Assembly (NCBI GenBank): GCA_003248075.1 | Contig: QJYK01000224.1 | Span: 1 to 51,578, forward strand | Direction of reading: 5' to 3' | From: Gemmatimonadota bacterium | Lineage (GTDB): Bacteria; Gemmatimonadota; Gemmatimonadetes; Longimicrobiales; Gaopeijiaceae | DNA length: 51,578 bases | In this document: piece after piece, positions 8,921-18,072 of the stretch | Layout of the letters: every line of letters starts with the position of its first letter | How positions within the stretch are numbered: the first letter of the stretch is position 1 | Translations under genes and position numbers: made by a program | The notes under the pieces: generated by a model | The model's database searches: none | What the model saw: only the letters and a program-made list of their open reading frames with translations | Told to the model about the DNA's origin: nothing

Positions 8921-9057
8921 TCGATCGATCTCGTGTTGTGGGGACATCGGAACGCTTGCCGTGTATCTCCCGTAGGGTGAACTATCGCGATGGGAGCCGC
9001 CGGGCCAGCGCCCGGCTGGCAGCGCGTGTGATCGAAACGGCCCGCCGGGGAGGAGCG

Positions 9058-10077
9058 ATGCCGAGGAGACTGCTGAAAGGACGGGTCGGTCTGATCCTGG
9101 CTCTCGCCGGTGACCTCCTCCTGTCGGGCGGCCCGCACCTTCATCCGACCGTGCCGGAGGCATCCCTGCGCGCCGCCCTCGACGCCCAGGCGAGGGTGAG
9201 CGACGAGTGGCTCGCCCTGGATGGCGTCGTGGGCACCGCAGTCGGCATGGGCGCGGGCGGTGACGCCGTACTGAAGGTCTACCTGACCGCGCCTGGCGCC
9301 GCGCTTCTTCCCTCCCGCGTCGCCGGCGTTTCGGTCGACCTGGAGGTGACCGGTGAGTTTCGGGCGCTCGAGCCCGCTGCCGAGGACGTGGACCCGAAGG
9401 GCAACTTCGCCCGCCCGGTCCCCATCGGCGTGAGCACCGGGCATCCGGACGTCACGGCCGGCACGATCGGCGCGAGGGTCACCGACGGAGAGCGGATCTA
9501 CGCGCTGAGCAACAACCACGTCTACGCGAACAACAACGCCGCCCGCAAAGGAGACAATCTGCTCCAGCCGGGTCGCGCCGATGGTGGACGAGATCCCGAT
9601 GACGTCATCGGTACACTCTACGACTTCGAGCCGGTGCGCTTCTGCGAAGGGCTCTCCTGTCCGTTCAACCCGATTGACGCGGCGATCGCTGTGACCACCG
9701 CGGAGGACCTGGGCACCGCGACTCCCGACGGCGGCTACGGCCAGCCGCGCACGTCCACCGTCGAGCCGCAGCTCGGGATGGCGGTGCAGAAGTACGGACG
9801 CACGACGGGCCACACGTTCGGGCGCGTCACGGGGATCAACGCGATCATCGACGTCTCGTACCGCGACGGCAAGGCGCGCTTCCAGGGACAGATTGTCATC
9901 TCGGGGGGCAATTTCAGCGCCGGCGGCGACTCGGGGTCGCTCGTGGTCACGGACGGGGTCCTGCTGGGTGATCGCCGGCCGGTGGGGCTCCTCTTCGCCG
10001 GAAGTCCCTCGAACACTCTGGCCAACCCCATCGATCCGGTCCTCGAGCGCTTCAGCGTGCGCATCGACGGGGGCTGA
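9058..10077 (+). CDS. secreted trypsin-like (chymotrypsin-fold) serine protease
   Basis: 339 residues. The ATG at 9058 follows GGGGAGGAGCG and starts a signal-like hydrophobic stretch (VGLILALAGDLLLSGG). The likely triad is H154 in LSNNHVYANNN, D207 in FNPIDAAIAV and S292 in SAGGDSGSLVV, the order and motif style of the chymotrypsin clan. Two cysteines (CEGLSC, 196 and 201) may pair. Residues 50-104, before the catalytic domain, form a separate module (GVVGTAVGMGAGG..LKVYL...) that recurs as the stand-alone protein encoded just downstream. It is probably a pro-region or targeting domain. The two genes are 5 nt apart and surely co-transcribed. The substrate is unknown. Confidence 0.88.
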   Translation: MPRRLLKGRVGLILALAGDLLLSGGPHLHPTVPEASLRAALDAQARVSDEWLALDGVVGTAVGMGAGGDAVLKVYLTAPGAALLPSRVAGVSVDLEVTGEFRALEPAAEDVDPKGNFARPVPIGVSTGHPDVTAGTIGARVTDGERIYALSNNHVYANNNAARKGDNLLQPGRADGGRDPDDVIGTLYDFEPVRFCEGLSCPFNPIDAAIAVTTAEDLGTATPDGGYGQPRTSTVEPQLGMAVQKYGRTTGHTFGRVTGINAIIDVSYRDGKARFQGQIVISGGNFSAGGDSGSLVVTDGVLLGDRRPVGLLFAGSPSNTLANPIDPVLERFSVRIDGG

Positions 10078-10082
10078 GGAAC

Positions 10083-10292
10083 GTGACGGGCGACATCAGG
10101 AAGGCGCAGTCGGAGCTCGCCTCCAGGGTCATGGGCAGACCGGGCGTCGAGGGCGTCGCCATCGGCCAGAAGGCTGGAAAGCCCTGCCTGGTCGTCTACG
10201 TGAGCAGCCAGGCCGGCGAAAAGCTCGTGCCGCGCACGGCGGGGGGCTTCCGCGTCGTGGTCGAGCGCGGCAAGGGGTTCCGCAAGCTCTGA
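10083..10292 (+). CDS. 69-residue stand-alone copy of the protease pro-region-like domain
   Basis: Starts at GTG 10083 with GAGGAAC just upstream, 5 nt after the protease stop. Residues 13-69 align without large gaps to residues 50-104 of the protease. Shared positions include GV.G.A.G...G, L.VY, L.P...G..V..E..G.FR.L. No signal peptide is visible, so it may stay in the cytoplasm. That would fit an inhibitor or folding partner keeping the protease inactive before export, but this is inference. Alternatively it is a regulatory domain left over from duplication. Confidence 0.75.
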   Translation: MTGDIRKAQSELASRVMGRPGVEGVAIGQKAGKPCLVVYVSSQAGEKLVPRTAGGFRVVVERGKGFRKL

Positions 10293-10355
10293 GGGGGGGT
10301 ATCCCATCCCGGGCTCCCCACGGAAACCTCACGGCTCGGACGTCCCCGCCGCCCC

Positions 10356-10384
10356 TTGACCATCGGGCCCCGACGGCTCAGATC
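10356..10384 (+). promoter_or_regulatory. predicted sigma-70-type promoter of the cytochrome operon
   Basis: TTGACC (10356-10361), 17 nt, CAGATC (10379-10384). The predicted start site near 10391 falls just before the riboswitch aptamer. The padR leader has the same arrangement (TTGACC, 17 nt, CAGATT), which supports this being a real house-keeping-type promoter in this genome. Confidence 0.55.
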
Positions 10385-10396
10385 TTGCACCCATTC

Positions 10397-10506
10397 GGAT
10401 CACCACCTGAAAAGGGCAAACCGTCGGCGACGGCGGGGCGCAAAGCCAGGGATCCGCGCGAAATCGCGCGCCGACCGCCCGGCTGCCAGGTAGGACGACG
10501 GGATCC
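10397..10506 (+). promoter_or_regulatory. cyclic-di-GMP-I (GEMM) riboswitch aptamer upstream of the cytochrome operon
   Basis: Shows the class signatures in order: GGGCAAACC (10414-10422), a six-pair hairpin CCGTCG-GCGA-CGGCGG (10421-10436) with a GNRA tetraloop, then GCAAAGCCA (10440-10448). A variable GC-rich hairpin with an AAAT loop and the 3' segment GGCTGCCAGGTAG (10481-10493) follow. The outer stem is GGATC (10397-10401) with GATCC (10502-10506). The GNRA loop is the element that docks in known structures. I see no U-tract terminator between the aptamer and the ATG at 10627, so control may act on translation (AAGGAG at 10612) or on a Rho-type terminator. The full gap 10293-10626 holds only this element and its promoter. 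Confidence 0.85.
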
Positions 10507-10626
10507 ACGGCCGGGTCCGGTCCGTGCTGCCCAGCGCCGCGCGGATCGGGCCTCGTCCTTTCGGGGGGTGGGCGGGCCGCGGGCCTGTCGGCGTCAGGGG
10601 CCCACGTCGGGAAGGAGCTACAGGAG

Positions 10627-11481
10627 ATGCTCGGATTCCTCTTGACCGCGCTGTGGCTCGGCGTGGCGGGGACGGCCCTCCTGTCCGGACTGGACTTCTA
10701 CCTCCTGCCCGACCAGGAACGCGCCTTCTCACCCTTGGCGGACCTATGGGGTCCCACGGGCCTCTACGGGCAGGGGATGGGGATCGTCGGGTCGGCGATG
10801 ATCGTGGTCGGGGTCGTGGCCTACGCACTCCGCAAGCGTGTGTCGTTCCTCGCCCGGGCCGGCCAGCTTCGCCACTGGCTGAGCGTCCACATCTTCCTGT
10901 GCACCCTCGGCCCGTTCCTGGTGCTGCTGCACACCACGTTCAAGTTCGGTGGCATCGTGTCGATCGCGTTCTGGAGCATGGCGATCGTTACGGCGAGCGG
11001 GGTCTTCGGTCGGTACGTCTACGCACGCATCCCGAAGACGGTGAACGGTCGCTTCCTGGGGCTGAGGGCCATACAGGAACGGGCGCTGGAGCTCTCGGCG
11101 GAGATCGCCGCGCGTACGGGGCTCCCCCCGTCGGAAATCGAGGGGATGGTCGCCGCACCGGTGACGAGCACACATGCCGAGAGTCTGCTCGGAGCGTTGG
11201 GAGCGGCCTTCGCGTCCGATATCCGGGCCGTGGGGCATCGGCGCGCGCTGCGGGCGTTCCTCAGGGTACGCGCGGTTCCGGCAGAGCTCCACCGACCCGT
11301 GGTCGCCATGGACGCGGAGCGTCGACGCCTCCAACGTCAGGCCCTGCTGCTGCAGCCCTTCCAACGCCTGTTCCGGTACTGGCACGTGATCCATCTGCCG
11401 CTGGCGACGGTGATGTTCATCGTGCTCGGCATACACGTGACCGTCGCCGTCATGTTCGGGTACACGTGGATCTTCCAGTGA
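10627..11481 (+). CDS. di-haem cytochrome b-type inner-membrane protein
   Basis: 284 residues, first gene of the electron-transfer operon; AAGGAG lies 9 nt before the ATG. Hydrophobic segments occur near residues 1-22, 48-68, 86-103, 112-131 and 255-277. H88 and H102 in one helix and H256 and H270 in another are each 14 apart. That is the spacing by which two antiparallel helices hold two stacked b haems in cytochrome b. H83 and H253 flank these. A soluble, Ala/Arg/Glu-rich helical domain of about 110 residues lies between helices four and five. Likely role: move electrons between the quinone pool or the operon's flavoprotein and the periplasmic multihaem cytochrome. No exact family name is claimed. 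Confidence 0.82.
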   Translation: MLGFLLTALWLGVAGTALLSGLDFYLLPDQERAFSPLADLWGPTGLYGQGMGIVGSAMIVVGVVAYALRKRVSFLARAGQLRHWLSVHIFLCTLGPFLVLLHTTFKFGGIVSIAFWSMAIVTASGVFGRYVYARIPKTVNGRFLGLRAIQERALELSAEIAARTGLPPSEIEGMVAAPVTSTHAESLLGALGAAFASDIRAVGHRRALRAFLRVRAVPAELHRPVVAMDAERRRLQRQALLLQPFQRLFRYWHVIHLPLATVMFIVLGIHVTVAVMFGYTWIFQ

Positions 11482-12962
11482 CCCCGACAGGTCTGACCGG
11501 CATGGCGAGCACGCTGGTGCTCCTCACACTGCTGTGCTCTCCGAGGCCGACGACGGCCCAGCTCATCTCGCCCGGGAAGTTGTCGAGTGGGCACGCGGCG
11601 CTCGAGGGGATACGGAACTGCACACGCTGCCACGAGCTCAGACAGAAGGGCGTGTCCGCCGACCTGTGTCTCGACTGCCACGAGCCGCTCGCCCGCCGGT
11701 ACACCGCGGGGACGGGCTTCCACGCTACGCTCTCCGAGAAGGACTGTGCGGCGTGCCACAAGGAGCACTTCGGCGTCGATTTCGCGATCGTGCGGCTGGA
11801 CACCGCGGAGTTCCGACACGACCGGACCGGCTACGACCTCGAGGGGGCGCACGCGGACCTGGGATGCAGGGAATGTCACGCTCCCGAACGTGTCACGGAC
11901 CGGACGGTGATCGCCTTCGGGAGGGAGCACGGAGGGCTCGCGCGCACCTTTCTCGGGCTCCCCGATACCTGCGAGGCGTGCCATGGCTCGGACTCGCCCC
12001 ACGGCGACGACCTGAACGGACGTCCCTGCGCGAGCTGCCATGGCCAGGAGGACTGGAAGGAGGCCTCGGGGTTCGATCACGCCACCACAGCGTACCCGCT
12101 CACCGGACTGCACGCACGGGTCGTGTGTGAGGGGTGCCATCGTCCGCGCGGCACCGGGCCGGACGCACCGCTGCGCTACGCGGGGATCGATGCGGCGACC
12201 TGTACCTCCTGCCACCAGGATCCGCATCGGGGGGCGATGCCCGGGCGATGCGAACGCTGCCACACGACCCGTGGCTGGCAGAACGTCGATCGCAGGCGGG
12301 TCGAGTCGGACTTCGATCATCGCCGCACCGGCTTCGCCCTGGTGGGCAGCCACGCCGAAGCGCCCTGCGCCTCGTGTCACGATGCCAAGGCCTCGTCGAG
12401 CGTGGTGGGCGTCACGCTGCGCTTCCAGAAGGGAACCGAGCGTCGCGCCTTCCCCCACCCGGTCGCGTCGACCTGCGGGTCCTGCCACGTCGACCGCCAC
12501 GAGAAGCTGCCGCTCGAGGCCGAGGGCGCGTCGCCCTGCGACGCGTGTCATGGCCAGGAAACGTGGCTTCCGTCCGCGTACGATCTCACCCGCCACCTCC
12601 GCGAAGCCGGGTACCCGCTGGTGGGCGCCCACGTAGCGGTGGCCTGCGAGTCGTGTCATCGCTCCAGCGACGGGACTCTGACGTTCCGTCTCGTGGCCAC
12701 GTCGTGCTCCGACTGCCATCAGACCTCCTCTCCGCACGGCGACCAGTTCGAGGGCCGCGCGTGCGACGCGTGCCACGTGGGGGACAGCTTCGTCATCGAA
12801 GCCTTCGACCACGATTCCACGCGCTTCCCCCTGGACGGTGCCCACGCGGGCGTGCCGTGCGCGTCCTGCCACCTGAGCGAGGCACACGGGACCGGAGCGA
12901 CCCAGGTGCGCTATCGCCCCTTGGGCACGGAGTGCCGTGATTGCCACGGAGGCGCCGCGTGA
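11478..12962 (+). CDS. 17-haem c-type cytochrome, periplasmic
   Basis: 494 residues if started at GTG 11478, whose GTGA overlaps the cytochrome b stop; ATG 11502 is the alternative. A hydrophobic export signal ends near RPTTAQ. I count 17 CXXCH haem-attachment motifs, the first CTRCH and the last CRDCH. Between many pairs runs a recurring unit, (W)....FDH..T.FPL.GAH....C..CH (for example FDHDSTRFPLDGAHAGVPCASCH positions), which supplies further histidines for bis-His ligation. No catalytic domain is evident, so it is a wire-like electron carrier. It sits between the membrane cytochrome b gene and the 28-haem protein, as expected for the periplasmic part of a trans-envelope conduit. Confidence 0.93.
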   Translation: MTPTGLTGMASTLVLLTLLCSPRPTTAQLISPGKLSSGHAALEGIRNCTRCHELRQKGVSADLCLDCHEPLARRYTAGTGFHATLSEKDCAACHKEHFGVDFAIVRLDTAEFRHDRTGYDLEGAHADLGCRECHAPERVTDRTVIAFGREHGGLARTFLGLPDTCEACHGSDSPHGDDLNGRPCASCHGQEDWKEASGFDHATTAYPLTGLHARVVCEGCHRPRGTGPDAPLRYAGIDAATCTSCHQDPHRGAMPGRCERCHTTRGWQNVDRRRVESDFDHRRTGFALVGSHAEAPCASCHDAKASSSVVGVTLRFQKGTERRAFPHPVASTCGSCHVDRHEKLPLEAEGASPCDACHGQETWLPSAYDLTRHLREAGYPLVGAHVAVACESCHRSSDGTLTFRLVATSCSDCHQTSSPHGDQFEGRACDACHVGDSFVIEAFDHDSTRFPLDGAHAGVPCASCHLSEAHGTGATQVRYRPLGTECRDCHGGAA

Positions 12963-15142
12963 TCCGCGCCCCGATCGCCCTGCTCGGGCTGATGGCGCTC
13001 GCTCCCGCGCGAGCCGCGGCCCGACAGGGCGTGGAGAGCCCCCACGGGACACTCCCTCCCGACCTGGACTGCTCGGCCTGTCACAGCGAGACGGGATGGA
13101 CGCCGCTGCGGCGCGATCCGACGTTCGACCACGACCGTAGGACCGGTTTCGTCATGACCGGAGCGCACACCCGGGCTTCGTGCGCGGCGTGCCACCTCGA
13201 GCTGCGCTTCGACGGCCCCAGCCTCGCGATGGACGACTGCGCGGGATGTCACGCGGACATCCACGAGGGAAAGATGGTGCGGGACTGCGCCGACTGTCAC
13301 ACGACGGGCTCCTTCCATGCCGTCGACGGCGAGGAGGTCCACGCCAGGACGTCGTTCCCCCTCACTGGGGCCCACCGGCAGGTGAGCTGCGAGAGCTGTC
13401 ACATCAACGACGTCGGCGGCGCGTATACGCCGCTGGAGACCGAGTGCACTACCTGCCACGCGGACGACTACGCCGGCGCGAGCACCGTCGATCACGTGGC
13501 CAACGGGTATCCCACCGACTGCACCGAGTGCCACAGCACGCTGGGATGGAGCGACTCCCCGGCGTTCGATCACGCGGCGGTGTCCGGTGGCTTCGAGCTC
13601 CTGGGTGCCCACGACGGGCTGCGTTGCGCCAGCTGTCACACCGTACCCGGCCTCGATCCCATCTTCCAGCCGGCAGGACAGGACGATTGCGTGGCGTGTC
13701 ACGCCGCGGACTACGAGCGCCAGCACGGTGGATCGGGCTTCCCGACGACCTGCGCGACCTGCCATGGCGTGGACAACTGGGATGTCGAGAGCTTCGACCA
13801 CGCCTTCACGGGCTTCCCGCTCGTCGAACGGCACGCGGGCCTGTCGTGCGGCAGCTGCCACACCGGCGACGGCCGCGGCCTGCTCTTCCCCACCCCCAGC
13901 GACCCGACGGACTGCGTCGCCTGCCATCGTGACGACTACGACCGGAAGCACACAGGGTCCGGCTTCCCCACCACCTGCCTGTCGTGCCATACGCAGCGGA
14001 ACTGGGACGCCGAAGGCTTCAACCACGCCCTGACCGCCTTCCCTCTGGTGGGGGCGCACGTGGCGGCCCGGTGCGACGACTGTCACGGCCCTCAGGCGGT
14101 GAGTGGCGGAACCGGTGGCGCATCCGCGGAGTGCGTCTCCTGTCATCAGGCGGCGTACGACGGGACCCACGCCGGGTCCGGCTATCCCACGGAGTGCACC
14201 ACCTGCCACACGCAGGACTCATGGGCGGGAGCGACGTTCGATCACGCACTGACGACATTCCCGCTGGAGGGCGCCCACGCGACCGCTCCCTGCGCCACCT
14301 GCCACGGAGGCTCGTCTCCACTGGCGTCGCTTCCGACGGGACCGGAGGACTGCGCATCCTGCCACACCGCCGCGTACGATGCGGCCCATGGTGCCTCCTC
14401 CGGCTTCCCCACGACCTGCGCCGACTGCCACGACGTCGTGACCTGGTCAGGAGCGACGGCCGATCACGCGGCCCTTTCCGGGGGCTTCGCGCTGAGCGGA
14501 CCCCACGCGACCGCGGCATGCACCTCGTGCCACGCGGTGCCCGGGTACCAGCTGCTCTTTCCCAAACCCTCGGGCACGGACCATTGCGTGGCCTGTCACC
14601 AGGCCCAGTACGACGCCGCGCACGCCGGCTCCGGATTCCCGACCGCGTGCACCACCTGCCACGCGGACGACCGATGGACCGGGGCCACGATCGACCACCC
14701 GACAGTCTCGGGGGGATTCCGCCTCCTCGGCGCCCATCAGGCCGCCACCTGCACAGCCTGCCACGCCGTGCCCGGATACGCGCTCCTCTACCCCATCCCC
14801 TCGGACGACCAGGACTGCGTGGCGTGCCACCAGGACCGCTACGACGCTGCCCATGGCGGCAGCGGCTACCCGACCGCATGCGCCGACTGCCACACGACCA
14901 CCGCCTGGCAGCCGTCCACCTTCGACCATGAGCGCGTCTTCCTGCTGCAGTCCGGTCCGCACCAGCAGAAGTGGTCGGCGTGCTCGGACTGCCACACCTC
15001 CTCGTCCAACATCTCGGCCTTCACGTGCTTCAACTGCCACGTCCACGCCCAATCGGTGATGGACGAAAAGCACAAGCAGGTCAACGGCTACGTCTACGAA
15101 AGCGGCCAGTGCCTCAACTGCCACCCCAGGGGACTCAAGTGA
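12959..15142 (+). CDS. 28-haem c-type cytochrome built from tandem tri-haem modules
   Basis: 727 residues from GTG 12959 (GTGA overlap with the previous stop), giving a clean signal peptide (IRAPIALLGLMALAPARAAA). 28 CXXCH motifs: five N-terminal, seven repeats of three, two C-terminal. Repeats begin near residues 163, 244, 319, 392, 465, 543 and 620, with a 73-81 residue period. A typical repeat reads CVACH..DYD..H.GSGFPT.C.TCH....W....FDHA....FPL.GAH....C..CH. Six of the seven carry three extra histidines (YDxxH, DH, GAH), enough to give each of the three haems a distal His ligand. The design suits a long conductive wire, periplasm-spanning or at the surface. It could be exported through or plugged into the barrel protein encoded next. 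Confidence 0.93.
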   Translation: MIRAPIALLGLMALAPARAAARQGVESPHGTLPPDLDCSACHSETGWTPLRRDPTFDHDRRTGFVMTGAHTRASCAACHLELRFDGPSLAMDDCAGCHADIHEGKMVRDCADCHTTGSFHAVDGEEVHARTSFPLTGAHRQVSCESCHINDVGGAYTPLETECTTCHADDYAGASTVDHVANGYPTDCTECHSTLGWSDSPAFDHAAVSGGFELLGAHDGLRCASCHTVPGLDPIFQPAGQDDCVACHAADYERQHGGSGFPTTCATCHGVDNWDVESFDHAFTGFPLVERHAGLSCGSCHTGDGRGLLFPTPSDPTDCVACHRDDYDRKHTGSGFPTTCLSCHTQRNWDAEGFNHALTAFPLVGAHVAARCDDCHGPQAVSGGTGGASAECVSCHQAAYDGTHAGSGYPTECTTCHTQDSWAGATFDHALTTFPLEGAHATAPCATCHGGSSPLASLPTGPEDCASCHTAAYDAAHGASSGFPTTCADCHDVVTWSGATADHAALSGGFALSGPHATAACTSCHAVPGYQLLFPKPSGTDHCVACHQAQYDAAHAGSGFPTACTTCHADDRWTGATIDHPTVSGGFRLLGAHQAATCTACHAVPGYALLYPIPSDDQDCVACHQDRYDAAHGGSGYPTACADCHTTTAWQPSTFDHERVFLLQSGPHQQKWSACSDCHTSSSNISAFTCFNCHVHAQSVMDEKHKQVNGYVYESGQCLNCHPRGLK

Positions 15143-16740
15143 GGCGGCGTCGGACGTTGGGTGCCCGCGCATCGCTGACCGGCGTGCTCCTCCTGGTGTG
15201 CGTCGCGTCGGTGGTGGCCCAGGAGCCCCGGCCGCAGGATGCGCCGAGGGCCACCGTCTTGGTGCGGCAGGTGGCCGGCACGAGCATCTACCTGGACATC
15301 GGGCGTAGGCACGGACTCGACACCGGCGACACCGTCGAGGTCGCCCGGGAGGCGGACGGAGCGACCGTGGGGCGCCTGACCGTGACCGCCGCGACCGAAG
15401 ACCGCTCGGTGCTGACGTTCGCGGGTGAGCCCTTCGCCGTCACGCGCGGTGCGTCGCTGACCCTCTTCCTGCTGCGGACGCCCACGGATGCGGTACCGGA
15501 GGCCGCCGCGCCACGACCTGGCGCCCAGACCGGCGCTCGGGTCTCCCAGCCGGCCTCCTCCCTGTCGCGTCCGCGGGGGCGGGTGGGGATCGACCTGTCC
15601 GCGTCCCAGTCCACGACCAGCGTGGGGTCCGTCGATCCCGAACGGGTGAGCCGCACCTTCGCGACGCCGGCCTTCCGGCTCGACGCCACCGTTCCTCGGG
15701 CCGTCGGGCCCCTCGCGCTGCATCTCGGTGGGCGGCTGGCCTACCGCTACGCGGACGGAGCGAGCATCACACCGGCGACGTCCGTCCGTATCTACGAGGC
15801 ATCGCTGGAGCACGACGCCCCCGGGTCTCCGGTCCGGGTCCGCCTGGGACGTTTCCACAGCCCGGTCGAGGCCTACAGCGGCTGGTGGGACGGAGCCATG
15901 CTCCGTCTGGGAGGCCGTAGCTTCGGCGTGGGGGCGCTCGCCGGCTTCGAGCCGGACCGCTGGAACGAGAAGCCATCCGCCGACCGGCCCAAGCTGACGG
16001 CCTTCGCGGACTGGGAGGGGCGCGGGCGCGGGTGGCGGTGGCAGGGAGACGTCTCGGTCCATGGAATGCGACCCCGCGACAGCCTTCCCGACCATACGTT
16101 CTTCGGGGTCAGCCAACGCATCACCAGCGGTCCGCTGCGAATCGTGCAGGACCTCCAGGTCGACCGGGATGACGTGGCGGGCAAATGGCGGCTGTCGCGG
16201 GCCGGACTTCGATCGGCGCTGGCCCTCGGGCGCCACCTCGACGTACGCGTGGGAGTCAGCCGCCGCGAAACGTGGCTCATCGGGCTCGGCGCCGGCCTGT
16301 TCGCCCCGCGCTCCGACCGGATTGACGGCGGCATCGCCGTCCGCGGAACCGCTGGGTACCTGTCCCTGGACGCGTCGCGCTCCACGGACGGGCTCGGCCG
16401 CGAGAGCACGGGTCTGACGGGGAGCGCGGCTCTGCGGAGGCTACCCGAGACCTCGATCCTCGGAGCCTCGGCGGTCGTGAGTCGCTGGACCGGGCCCTAC
16501 GGGAACACCCTGCTGGCCTCCCCGACACTCCAGGTGGATCTGTCACCCGCCTGGCTGCGCCTCGGGTACCGATTCTATCGGTCCGACTTCATCGAGCGTA
16601 TCAGCACGACCCATGGGGCCGAAGCCTCCGTGGACGCCCCCTTCGGCTCGGGCCTGCGCTTGTCCGCACGCGTGCGCGTCCAGTGGGGGTCGTACCTGGC
16701 CAACCGGTCGGTCGACCTCTCCCTGTATCGCGTATTCTGA
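15139..16740 (+). CDS. predicted outer-membrane beta-barrel protein of the cytochrome conduit
   Basis: 533 residues from GTG 15139 (GTGA overlap, third in a row). Arg-rich signal peptide RRRRTLGARASLTGVLLLVC ends near VVAQ. Residues about 30-110 form a small beta domain (VLVRQVAGTSIYLDIGRRHG ... VEVAREADG). A Pro/Ala linker follows. From about residue 145 to the end, alternating amphipathic strands dominate (LALHLGGRLAYRY, VRVRLGRFHSP, GYLSLDASRS, WLRLGYRFYRSDF). The protein ends in LSLYRVF, whose C-terminal phenylalanine is typical of barrel proteins. It may be the functional counterpart of the porin in porin-cytochrome complexes such as MtrB, though smaller and without recognisable similarity. 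The role is inferred from operon position. Confidence 0.78.
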   Translation: MRRRRTLGARASLTGVLLLVCVASVVAQEPRPQDAPRATVLVRQVAGTSIYLDIGRRHGLDTGDTVEVAREADGATVGRLTVTAATEDRSVLTFAGEPFAVTRGASLTLFLLRTPTDAVPEAAAPRPGAQTGARVSQPASSLSRPRGRVGIDLSASQSTTSVGSVDPERVSRTFATPAFRLDATVPRAVGPLALHLGGRLAYRYADGASITPATSVRIYEASLEHDAPGSPVRVRLGRFHSPVEAYSGWWDGAMLRLGGRSFGVGALAGFEPDRWNEKPSADRPKLTAFADWEGRGRGWRWQGDVSVHGMRPRDSLPDHTFFGVSQRITSGPLRIVQDLQVDRDDVAGKWRLSRAGLRSALALGRHLDVRVGVSRRETWLIGLGAGLFAPRSDRIDGGIAVRGTAGYLSLDASRSTDGLGRESTGLTGSAALRRLPETSILGASAVVSRWTGPYGNTLLASPTLQVDLSPAWLRLGYRFYRSDFIERISTTHGAEASVDAPFGSGLRLSARVRVQWGSYLANRSVDLSLYRVF

Positions 16741-16746
16741 GGCAGG

Positions 16747-18072
16747 ATGGATCCGGATAGCCTGATCATCGTGGCGCTCGGCGTGGGCCTGACGGTGTTG
16801 GCCATGCTCCCCACGTTCCTGAAGAGGGAGGCCCAGGAACGTCGCACGAGGATCGCCCACGCCGAGTCCCTCCGCTACGGCCTACACGAGCCCGTCTCAC
16901 TCCACCCCATCGTGGATCCGGGCGGATGCATCGGCACATCGAACTGCGTCTCCGTGTGTCCGGAGGAGGTCCTGGGGCTCAGAGCGGGTCAGGCCATTGC
17001 GGTGAGTCCTGCCCGGTGCATCGGACACGGCCTGTGCGAGCGCATCTGCCCGGTCGACGCGATCCAGCTCGTGTTCGGCACGGAGAAGCGCGGCGTCGAT
17101 CTGCCCCGCATCCAGGAGAACTTCGAGACCAACGTGCCGGGGCTGTACGTGATCGGGGAGCTCGGCGGCATGGGGCTCGTCGCGAACGCCTTCGAGCAGG
17201 GACGTCAGTGCGTAGAGGGCATCGTCCGCGAGATGGCGAGAGATCCTGGTGGGCAGGGGGACCTGGACGACCTGATCGTGGTGGGTTGCGGCCCCGCCGG
17301 CCTGTCCGCCTCGCTCACCGCGCTGGAAAAGGGCCTGCGATTCAGCACCCTGGAACGGGAAGACCTGGGCGGTACCGTTCGCCACTATCCACGCAAGAAG
17401 CTGGTGATGACGAGACCGGTGAAGGTCCCTGGATACGGAAGGCTCCCCATGCGCGAGGTGCGCAAAGAGGAGCTGATCGGGCTCTGGGAGGATATCGCCC
17501 ACAAGGTGGGGCTCCGGGTCGACACCGGGGTGACCGTGACCGGGATCAGTCGCGTGGACCATCTCCACTTCGAGGTGTCGACCGCGGAGGGCGTACGCAG
17601 GGCGAGGCGCGTGGTGCTGGCCATCGGGCGGCGGGGCGTGCCTCGTAAGCTCGGCGTCCCGGGAGAGGACGAGGCGGTGCACGTCGCGTATGCACTGCGC
17701 GAGCCCGAGGCCTACCGGGACGACCGCATCCTGGTCGTGGGCGGCGGGGACTCGGCGGTCGAAGCCGCGCTCGCCCTCGCCGAGCAGCCGGGAAACGACG
17801 TACGCCTCTCCTACCGAGGTGACGCGTTCTCCCGCATCAAGCCCGCCAATCAGCGACGGCTCGAGAGCGCTCTTTCCGACGGCTCGTTGGAGGTATTGCT
17901 GCAGACCCTGCCCCGCCGCATCCTCCCGGACGAGGTCACCCTCGAGTGGCCGGACGGTCGTGCCCGGGAGGTTCCCGCGGATCAGGTCTTCGTCTTCATC
18001 GGCGGAGAGCTACCGACCGCCTTCCTGCGCTCCGCCGGTGTGGAGATCGAGACGCACTTCGGCGCTCCCTGA
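16747..18072 (+). CDS. membrane-anchored ferredoxin-domain FAD/NAD(P) oxidoreductase
   Basis: 441 residues, last gene of the conduit operon, 6 nt after the barrel gene. One N-terminal membrane helix (IIVALGVGLTVLAMLPTF). A ferredoxin-like domain follows with C61-x5-C67-x3-C71-P and C91-x5-C97-x3-C101-P. In both motifs the usual second cysteine is replaced, by T64 and H94. Then comes a thioredoxin-reductase-fold flavoprotein: GCGPAGLSAS at 180 for FAD and VGGGDSAVEAAL near 330 for NAD(P). No CXXC redox pair is seen, so it is not a thioredoxin reductase. Likely role: pass electrons between NAD(P)H or ferredoxin and the membrane cytochrome b. Direction is not known. Confidence 0.85.
   Translation: MDPDSLIIVALGVGLTVLAMLPTFLKREAQERRTRIAHAESLRYGLHEPVSLHPIVDPGGCIGTSNCVSVCPEEVLGLRAGQAIAVSPARCIGHGLCERICPVDAIQLVFGTEKRGVDLPRIQENFETNVPGLYVIGELGGMGLVANAFEQGRQCVEGIVREMARDPGGQGDLDDLIVVGCGPAGLSASLTALEKGLRFSTLEREDLGGTVRHYPRKKLVMTRPVKVPGYGRLPMREVRKEELIGLWEDIAHKVGLRVDTGVTVTGISRVDHLHFEVSTAEGVRRARRVVLAIGRRGVPRKLGVPGEDEAVHVAYALREPEAYRDDRILVVGGGDSAVEAALALAEQPGNDVRLSYRGDAFSRIKPANQRRLESALSDGSLEVLLQTLPRRILPDEVTLEWPDGRAREVPADQVFVFIGGELPTAFLRSAGVEIETHFGAP

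Follow-up and report, generated by a model that had tools for sequence, protein, structure and literature searches.

Does the operon at positions 10405-18072 of a Gemmatimonadota contig (QJYK01000224.1) encode a path for electrons through the whole cell envelope, and is this path of a known type? The window analysed here is a stretch of 51,578 nucleotides of that contig. A first-pass annotation had recognized in it five tightly packed genes, for a di-haem cytochrome b, a 17-haem and a 28-haem cytochrome c, an outer-membrane beta-barrel and a membrane-anchored ferredoxin/flavin oxidoreductase, and had proposed that they perform extracellular electron transfer with parts other than those of MtrCAB and CbcL/ImcH. 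The parts indeed differ from these systems; the transfer and its direction are what we infer. In our reading, the five-gene set probably forms an electron conduit dedicated to crossing the envelope, comparable in function to porin-cytochrome systems and distinct from MtrCAB, CbcL and ImcH. This reading is favoured because every envelope layer has one predicted component, the set travels as a unit, the histidines of the tri-haem repeats are enough for bis-His ligation, and the haem sites of the 17-haem cytochrome are invariant. The new elements are a predicted leading riboswitch, a tri-haem growth rule, a cytochrome b and a barrel with no Pfam or NCBIfam match above cut-off, and unusual ferredoxin motifs.

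Organization of the operon

The five open reading frames (ORFs) are arranged head-to-tail on the plus strand, packed as first annotated. They encode, in this order, the cytochrome b (10627..11481, 284 residues), the exported 17-haem cytochrome (11478..12962), the exported 28-haem cytochrome (12959..15142), the barrel (15139..16740) and the oxidoreductase (16747..18072, 441 residues). A GTGA stop/start overlap is possible at each of the first three junctions (11478, 12959 and 15139), and the oxidoreductase starts seven bases past the end of the barrel gene. The 17-haem gene may start either at the overlapping GTG or at an ATG (11502), while the GTG of the 28-haem gene is preceded by GGAGG. The earlier claim that gene order follows the electron path from the cytoplasmic donor outwards does not hold here, as the gene for that donor stands last. 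Counts of CxxCH motifs were exactly 17 and 28, as annotated; in shuffled versions of the same proteins, the averages were 0.19 and 0.33, and no shuffle exceeded 3.

Inner-membrane components

In an alignment of 13 sequences of the cytochrome b, five histidines were invariant (His88, His102, His253, His256 and His270). Four of them form two pairs, His88/His102 and His256/His270, the members of each pair being spaced 14 residues apart, in two helices. The protein is therefore read as a bis-His cytochrome with two transmembrane haems b, which bears out the di-haem assignment. About five membrane helices can be seen by eye, and the sequence has no CxxCH. No Pfam or NCBIfam family scored above its cut-off, the protein being weakly like DUF4405 and cytochrome b561, and its profile found no credible relatives in the Protein Data Bank (PDB). 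In one genome (G120), the cytochrome b is split over two frames (L053:4083-4929; loci from other genomes carry L numbers); the remaining members of the set were not found on that short contig.

The oxidoreductase has a single membrane helix, at its N-terminus, together with two ferredoxin-like motifs (residues 61-101, positions 16927-17049) and a YpdA/TrxR-like fold for flavin adenine dinucleotide (FAD) and NAD(P), with fold matches to 7a7b (E 5.8e-49) and to the FNR 3ab1 (E 1.7e-28); its annotation as a membrane-anchored ferredoxin/flavin enzyme thus stands. In most of 71 relatives, the first motif reads C-x2-[S/T, rarely C]-x2-C-x3-CP and the second C-x2-H-x2-C-x3-CP. The usual second cysteine is thus Ser or Thr in the first motif of most relatives and an almost universal His in the second, and both replacements are kept across phyla. 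The FAD motif is GxGPAG in 69 of the 71 relatives and GxGPSG in another, none being found in the last; the enzyme therefore lacks the redox cysteine of disulfide reductases.

Multihaem cytochromes

All 17 CxxCH motifs of the 17-haem cytochrome were invariant in 16 aligned sequences. Its relatives mostly carry 17, 20, 23 or 26 haems, and the count fits 3n+2 in 82 of 87 c17-like ORFs, a figure uncorrected for kinship and for split or doubled genes. ORFs like the 28-haem protein (c28-like) range from 9 to 88 CxxCH, and 62 of the 71 with both ends inside the retrieved stretch fit 3n+1, with kinship and split or doubled genes again uncorrected. This second rule results from the construction of the protein: between two conserved ends lie tri-haem repeats, each about 75 residues long (69-79 in the window). 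Each module follows the order hhCChC, where C is a CxxCH and h a histidine outside such motifs, and its three extra histidines are enough for bis-His ligation of all its haems. Among 20 aligned proteins, invariance was confined to haem sites near the two ends, namely sites 2-7 and the final five, the middle being variable. In three loci (L103, L114 and L107), adjacent modules are up to 92-96% identical, indicating recent tandem duplication; modules of the window's protein are 22-55% identical, and thus old. In some Gemmatimonadota, a short cytochrome b is followed by an 8-9-haem cytochrome that resembles the end of the 28-haem protein (L055:5794-7511, L034:1300-3053 and L056:7777-9113).

The variable number of haems raises the question of whether these cytochromes conduct electrons or retain them. 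They could form a periplasmic store, a capacitor for surplus electrons, with the barrel serving secretion, anchoring or an unrelated role. Such a store would suit the absence of a lipobox from both cytochromes and the change from 9 to 88 haems with unchanged partners, and a capacitor-like role has been suggested for giant cytochromes of activated-sludge bacteria (PMC11495043). But the barrel is linked to the set as strictly as the inner-membrane pair (see below), and the variable cytochrome has two conserved ends, as would be expected if each docked to something. We regard a store as distinctly unlikely.

Similarity searches gave a general affiliation. The profile of the 28-haem protein matched 1z1n (E 7e-12), 3ov0 (E 4.7e-10) and chain A of 6r2q, matches which point to class III/c7 cytochromes generally; 3ov0 is GSU1996 and 6r2q an MtrCAB complex. 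Single-sequence searches of the PDB gave no match for either cytochrome. The 17-haem protein is weakly similar to ExtN/ExtO of a selenite/tellurite reduction operon (30 bits, cut-off 200), and the 28-haem protein to TIGR03508, the DmsE/MtrA family (48.5 bits, cut-off 192). These two likenesses would fit a respiratory reductase acting on a soluble substrate in the periplasm or at the surface (metal, selenite/tellurite, sulfur or nitrogen oxides), in which the cytochromes are the enzyme and the barrel a substrate gate. However, both scores fall far under the family cut-offs, the set includes no catalytic subunit, and the haem sites have matching distal histidines, leaving no obvious open active-site haem. 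A reductase is therefore highly improbable.

Outer-membrane barrel

A failed barrel prediction had been named beforehand as the result that would speak against the annotation. The AlphaFold2 model, made with nine sequences, has a mean predicted local distance difference test score (pLDDT) of 78; its residues 140-526 form about 22 long antiparallel strands, and the best 50 Foldseek matches of this model were all outer-membrane barrels. The protein begins with a signal peptide, and its last residue is Phe, as is usual for barrels of the outer membrane; of 48 barrel hits, some of them truncated by contig ends, 33 likewise terminate in Phe. A small beta domain occupies the N-terminus (residues about 31-106); its match to FlgT_C (E 0.0067) lay below the cut-off and was not used.

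The barrel could not be placed in any family: no Pfam or NCBIfam family scored above cut-off, nine of its relatives had no Pfam match, and its profile found no credible relatives in the PDB, though the library includes 6r2q. Foldseek matches to the ushers FimD and PapC were rejected as evidence of identity. With TM-scores of at most 0.45 by query length, a root-mean-square deviation of at least 9 and 9-12% identity, they reflect generic barrel similarity.

Conservation and distribution of the set

Separation of the five genes in related genomes was the other result that would have told against the annotation, which had asked for a survey of gene neighbourhoods. The cytochrome b alignment was scanned against 84,980 species genomes; from the 194 relatives that it found, the 80 best were carried forward. 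These 80 come from Gemmatimonadota, Rhodothermota, Bacteroidota (including Saprospiraceae, Flavobacteriaceae and Prolixibacteraceae) and Ignavibacteriota, with single relatives in records titled Chlorobiota and Latescibacterota. Thus, the set is kept together across four phyla, where a single, poorly described phylum had been assumed. All five genes were found in 44 of the 80, short contigs included. Among the 49 long loci, with at least 7.5 kb downstream, the cytochrome b and the oxidoreductase were present in all, a c28-like gene in 48, a c17-like gene in 47, the barrel in 40 and the complete set in 38.

The 11 incomplete long loci fall into three groups. Seven (L079, L095, L103, L110, L111, L114 and L124) end inside or near a c28-like gene of 49-88 CxxCH; since this long gene reaches or nearly reaches the end of the retrieved stretch, the barrel may lie beyond it. 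In two (L078 and L091), the c28-like gene and the barrel lie upstream, and the c17-like gene is not in the retrieved stretch. The remaining two (L087 and L117) lack further members of the set.

Two gene orders predominate. The window's order occurs in 13 loci, including its kin and Rhodothermota, and in 30 loci the oxidoreductase directly follows the cytochrome b, ahead of the 17-haem cytochrome, the 28-haem cytochrome and the barrel; one locus has the two cytochromes swapped. In Rhodothermota and Ignavibacteriota, a membrane-anchored protein of about 200-230 residues, which to the eye resembles tetratricopeptide repeats (NrfG/CcmI-like), lies between the cytochrome b and the next gene (L063:2519-3409, L083:5143-5841, L129:10800-11492 and L125:10810-11424); it is absent from the window. 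A distant variant (L054:7603-13588, genome G144) has a cytochrome b with 22% identity, a cytochrome with 10 CxxCH and an ORF of 1084 residues with an oxidoreductase-like part.

When 150 genomes of the phylum were searched for each protein independently, the cytochrome b, the oxidoreductase and the barrel were found in 16 genomes each, 14 being shared by all three. The pairwise co-occurrence has a P of about 1e-15 to 1e-18, a value that ignores shared ancestry. In longer stretches of the phylum's loci, both cytochromes adjoin these three genes.

The full set is also carried by a cultured species, Prolixibacter bellariivorans, which was isolated from a sediment fuel cell; Mariniphaga sediminis is another cultured carrier. 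Electrons could also flow inwards: supplied from outside by Fe(II), Fe(0), an electrode or a partner cell, they would enter via the barrel and cytochromes and cross the cytochrome b, so that the flavoprotein reduces NAD(P)+ at the expense of the membrane potential. The cytoplasmic end of the set, a flavoprotein that binds NAD(P) and has ferredoxin-like motifs, and no obvious quinol enzyme, would fit such inward flow, as would the corrosion of metallic iron by some Prolixibacter strains when nitrate is present (PMC8368055). However, that study by its title holds nitrite to be the causal factor, and nitrate was not respired by P. bellariivorans itself (PMC8368055). Moreover, Prolixibacter is a sugar fermenter and would gain more from an electron sink, and reducing NADP with a mineral donor is costly in energy. 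Inward flow is thus rather unlikely.

A predicted c-di-GMP riboswitch in front of the operon

The interval first annotated, from 10356, already included a riboswitch that had not been mentioned. Rfam places a c-di-GMP-I aptamer (RF01051) at 10405..10490 on the plus strand, with 57 bits against a gathering threshold of 35 (E 1.3e-8), and it ends 136 bases upstream of the cytochrome b gene. In a search of the whole 5.6 Mb assembly, the family had no second match. Two close relatives have an aptamer at the same place, L058 as RF01051 (64.9 bits) and L057 best as the variant RF03167 (61.2 bits), and in the cytochrome b tree the window and these two loci fall inside a supported clade of four. With a model built from the three aptamers, further matches among 92 loci were weak (best 21.6 bits, against about 90 for true copies). 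The riboswitch was therefore rejected as a general trait of the five-gene system. With strong copies at these three alone among the loci searched, the switch was probably gained locally by an operon that is older.

A simple scan found no terminator-like site in the window; in L057 and L058, GC-rich hairpins were seen by eye 3' of the aptamer. The genes downstream may be under c-di-GMP control in this genome. Further upstream, a protein encoded at 8938-10077 is weakly similar to the C-terminal domain of Nal1, and a short frame at about 10085-10293 resembles a piece of such a protein.

Proposed mechanism and its weak points

In the conduit that we favour, cytoplasmic NAD(P)H would reduce the membrane-anchored oxidoreductase at its FAD and iron-sulfur clusters, and this enzyme would pass electrons to the two haems of the cytochrome b and so across the inner membrane; quinol could also feed in at this step. 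From there, electrons would move to the 17-haem cytochrome in the periplasm and on to the 28-haem cytochrome, which may be threaded through the 22-strand barrel or docked at it, delivering them to an acceptor or partner outside. The reach of the 28-haem chain would be adjustable, its module number having changed between species by tandem duplication. In this genome, c-di-GMP would control the operon and may tie it to surface or biofilm life. The contacts between partners, the placement of the cytochromes, the extracellular end point, the direction and the effect of c-di-GMP are parts of this scheme that we infer.

Several observations weigh against a conduit. Neither cytochrome has a lipoprotein signal (lipobox) in this genome, and among their relatives 1 of 73 and 1 of 78 have one; hence nothing points to a cytochrome anchored at the surface in the manner of MtrC. 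AlphaFold2 with 20 sequences gave a poor model of the 28-haem protein (pLDDT 49, predicted TM-score 0.22), which lends support neither to a straight chain of haems nor to its fitting inside the barrel. The genome encodes four COX1-family proteins (contigs C41, C237 and C228), and oxygen respiration is therefore likely available. Finally, the open-access literature yielded no experiment on any member of the set. Further cytochrome c7-type matches were also found in the genome (contigs C102, C285, C304, C128 and C236); together with the COX1 genes, they suggest a respiring organism with other multihaem cytochromes.

If the conduit is real, it adds a candidate in several phyla seldom counted as electroactive, and the five genes provide a searchable marker set. 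Growth in steps of three offers a natural series, from 9 to 88 haems, for relating conductance and reach to haem number, and the presence of the full set in cultured P. bellariivorans makes extracellular activity directly testable. A bolder and rather doubtful proposal, put forward tentatively, is that the set contains a haem wire made of one polypeptide, whose length evolves as the barrel-linked cytochrome duplicates tri-haem modules between its conserved ends. A flavoprotein driven by NAD(P)H and the cytochrome b, bypassing the quinones, would feed it, and c-di-GMP would switch it in this lineage. Such a wire, if extended, would reach tens of nanometres and, being covalent, would offer across the FCB group an alternative to nanowires of polymerised cytochromes such as OmcS.

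Comparison with known systems

No description of the five-gene set was found in the open-access literature, a scope that leaves aside most subscription papers and preprints. The nearest systems in function are the porin-cytochrome conduits (MtrCAB, and Pcc/OmbB-OmaB-OmcB of Geobacter), in which an outer-membrane barrel is likewise encoded beside multihaem cytochromes and the two are proposed to carry electrons through the outer membrane. In gene content, a barrel gene accompanied by multihaem cytochrome genes, the set matches a porin-cytochrome system in the broad sense. It differs in its barrel of about 22 strands, in having its own cytochrome b and in its cytoplasmic flavoprotein. PF11854, the MtrB/PioB barrel, has no match in the genome or in the barrel family described here; by comparison with curated families, the barrel is thus set apart from MtrB/PioB. 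Neither decahaem cytochrome of MtrCAB has a counterpart in the set: the score against the MtrA/DmsE family is far under the cut-off and that protein has 28 CxxCH, and instead of a surface lipoprotein like MtrC there are 17- and 28-haem proteins with no lipobox. Bacteroidetes and Gemmatimonadetes are not named in the published 2014 pcc survey (PMC4245776).

At the inner membrane, the set resembles CbcL/MtrH/MtoC and ImcH/CymA in that a haem protein would feed multihaem c cytochromes. In contrast to CbcL and ImcH, the cytochrome b of 284 residues has no fused c haems and no Pfam cytochrome-b561 match above cut-off, and its constant neighbour is an NAD(P)/FAD/iron-sulfur protein.

The tandem tri-haem modules are shared with polymeric cytochromes c7 (GSU1996, 12 haems, 3ov0) and with class III cytochromes (1z1n). 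The c7 order, as in PpcA, is hhChCC; here it is hhCChC, in proteins of 9 to 88 haems exported within an envelope set. High and variable haem numbers among homologues are a feature in common with giant Bacteroidota/Saprospiraceae cytochromes and with the length-variable cytochromes of Burkholderiales and Anaerolineales. The former, with more than 100 haem motifs, are reported as undescribed in the portion of PMC11495043 consulted, which gives no operon, partners or repeat rule for them; length variation in the latter is called an unexplored area in PMC7399161.

The oxidoreductase shares its FAD/NAD(P) fold with YpdA/Bdr and TrxR-like ferredoxin-NADP reductases. The redox cysteine of Bdr is Cys14. 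In place of the Cys-bearing GxGPCG of YpdA/Bdr, the enzyme described here has GxGPAG, and its chain also includes a membrane helix and a ferredoxin part with two motifs.

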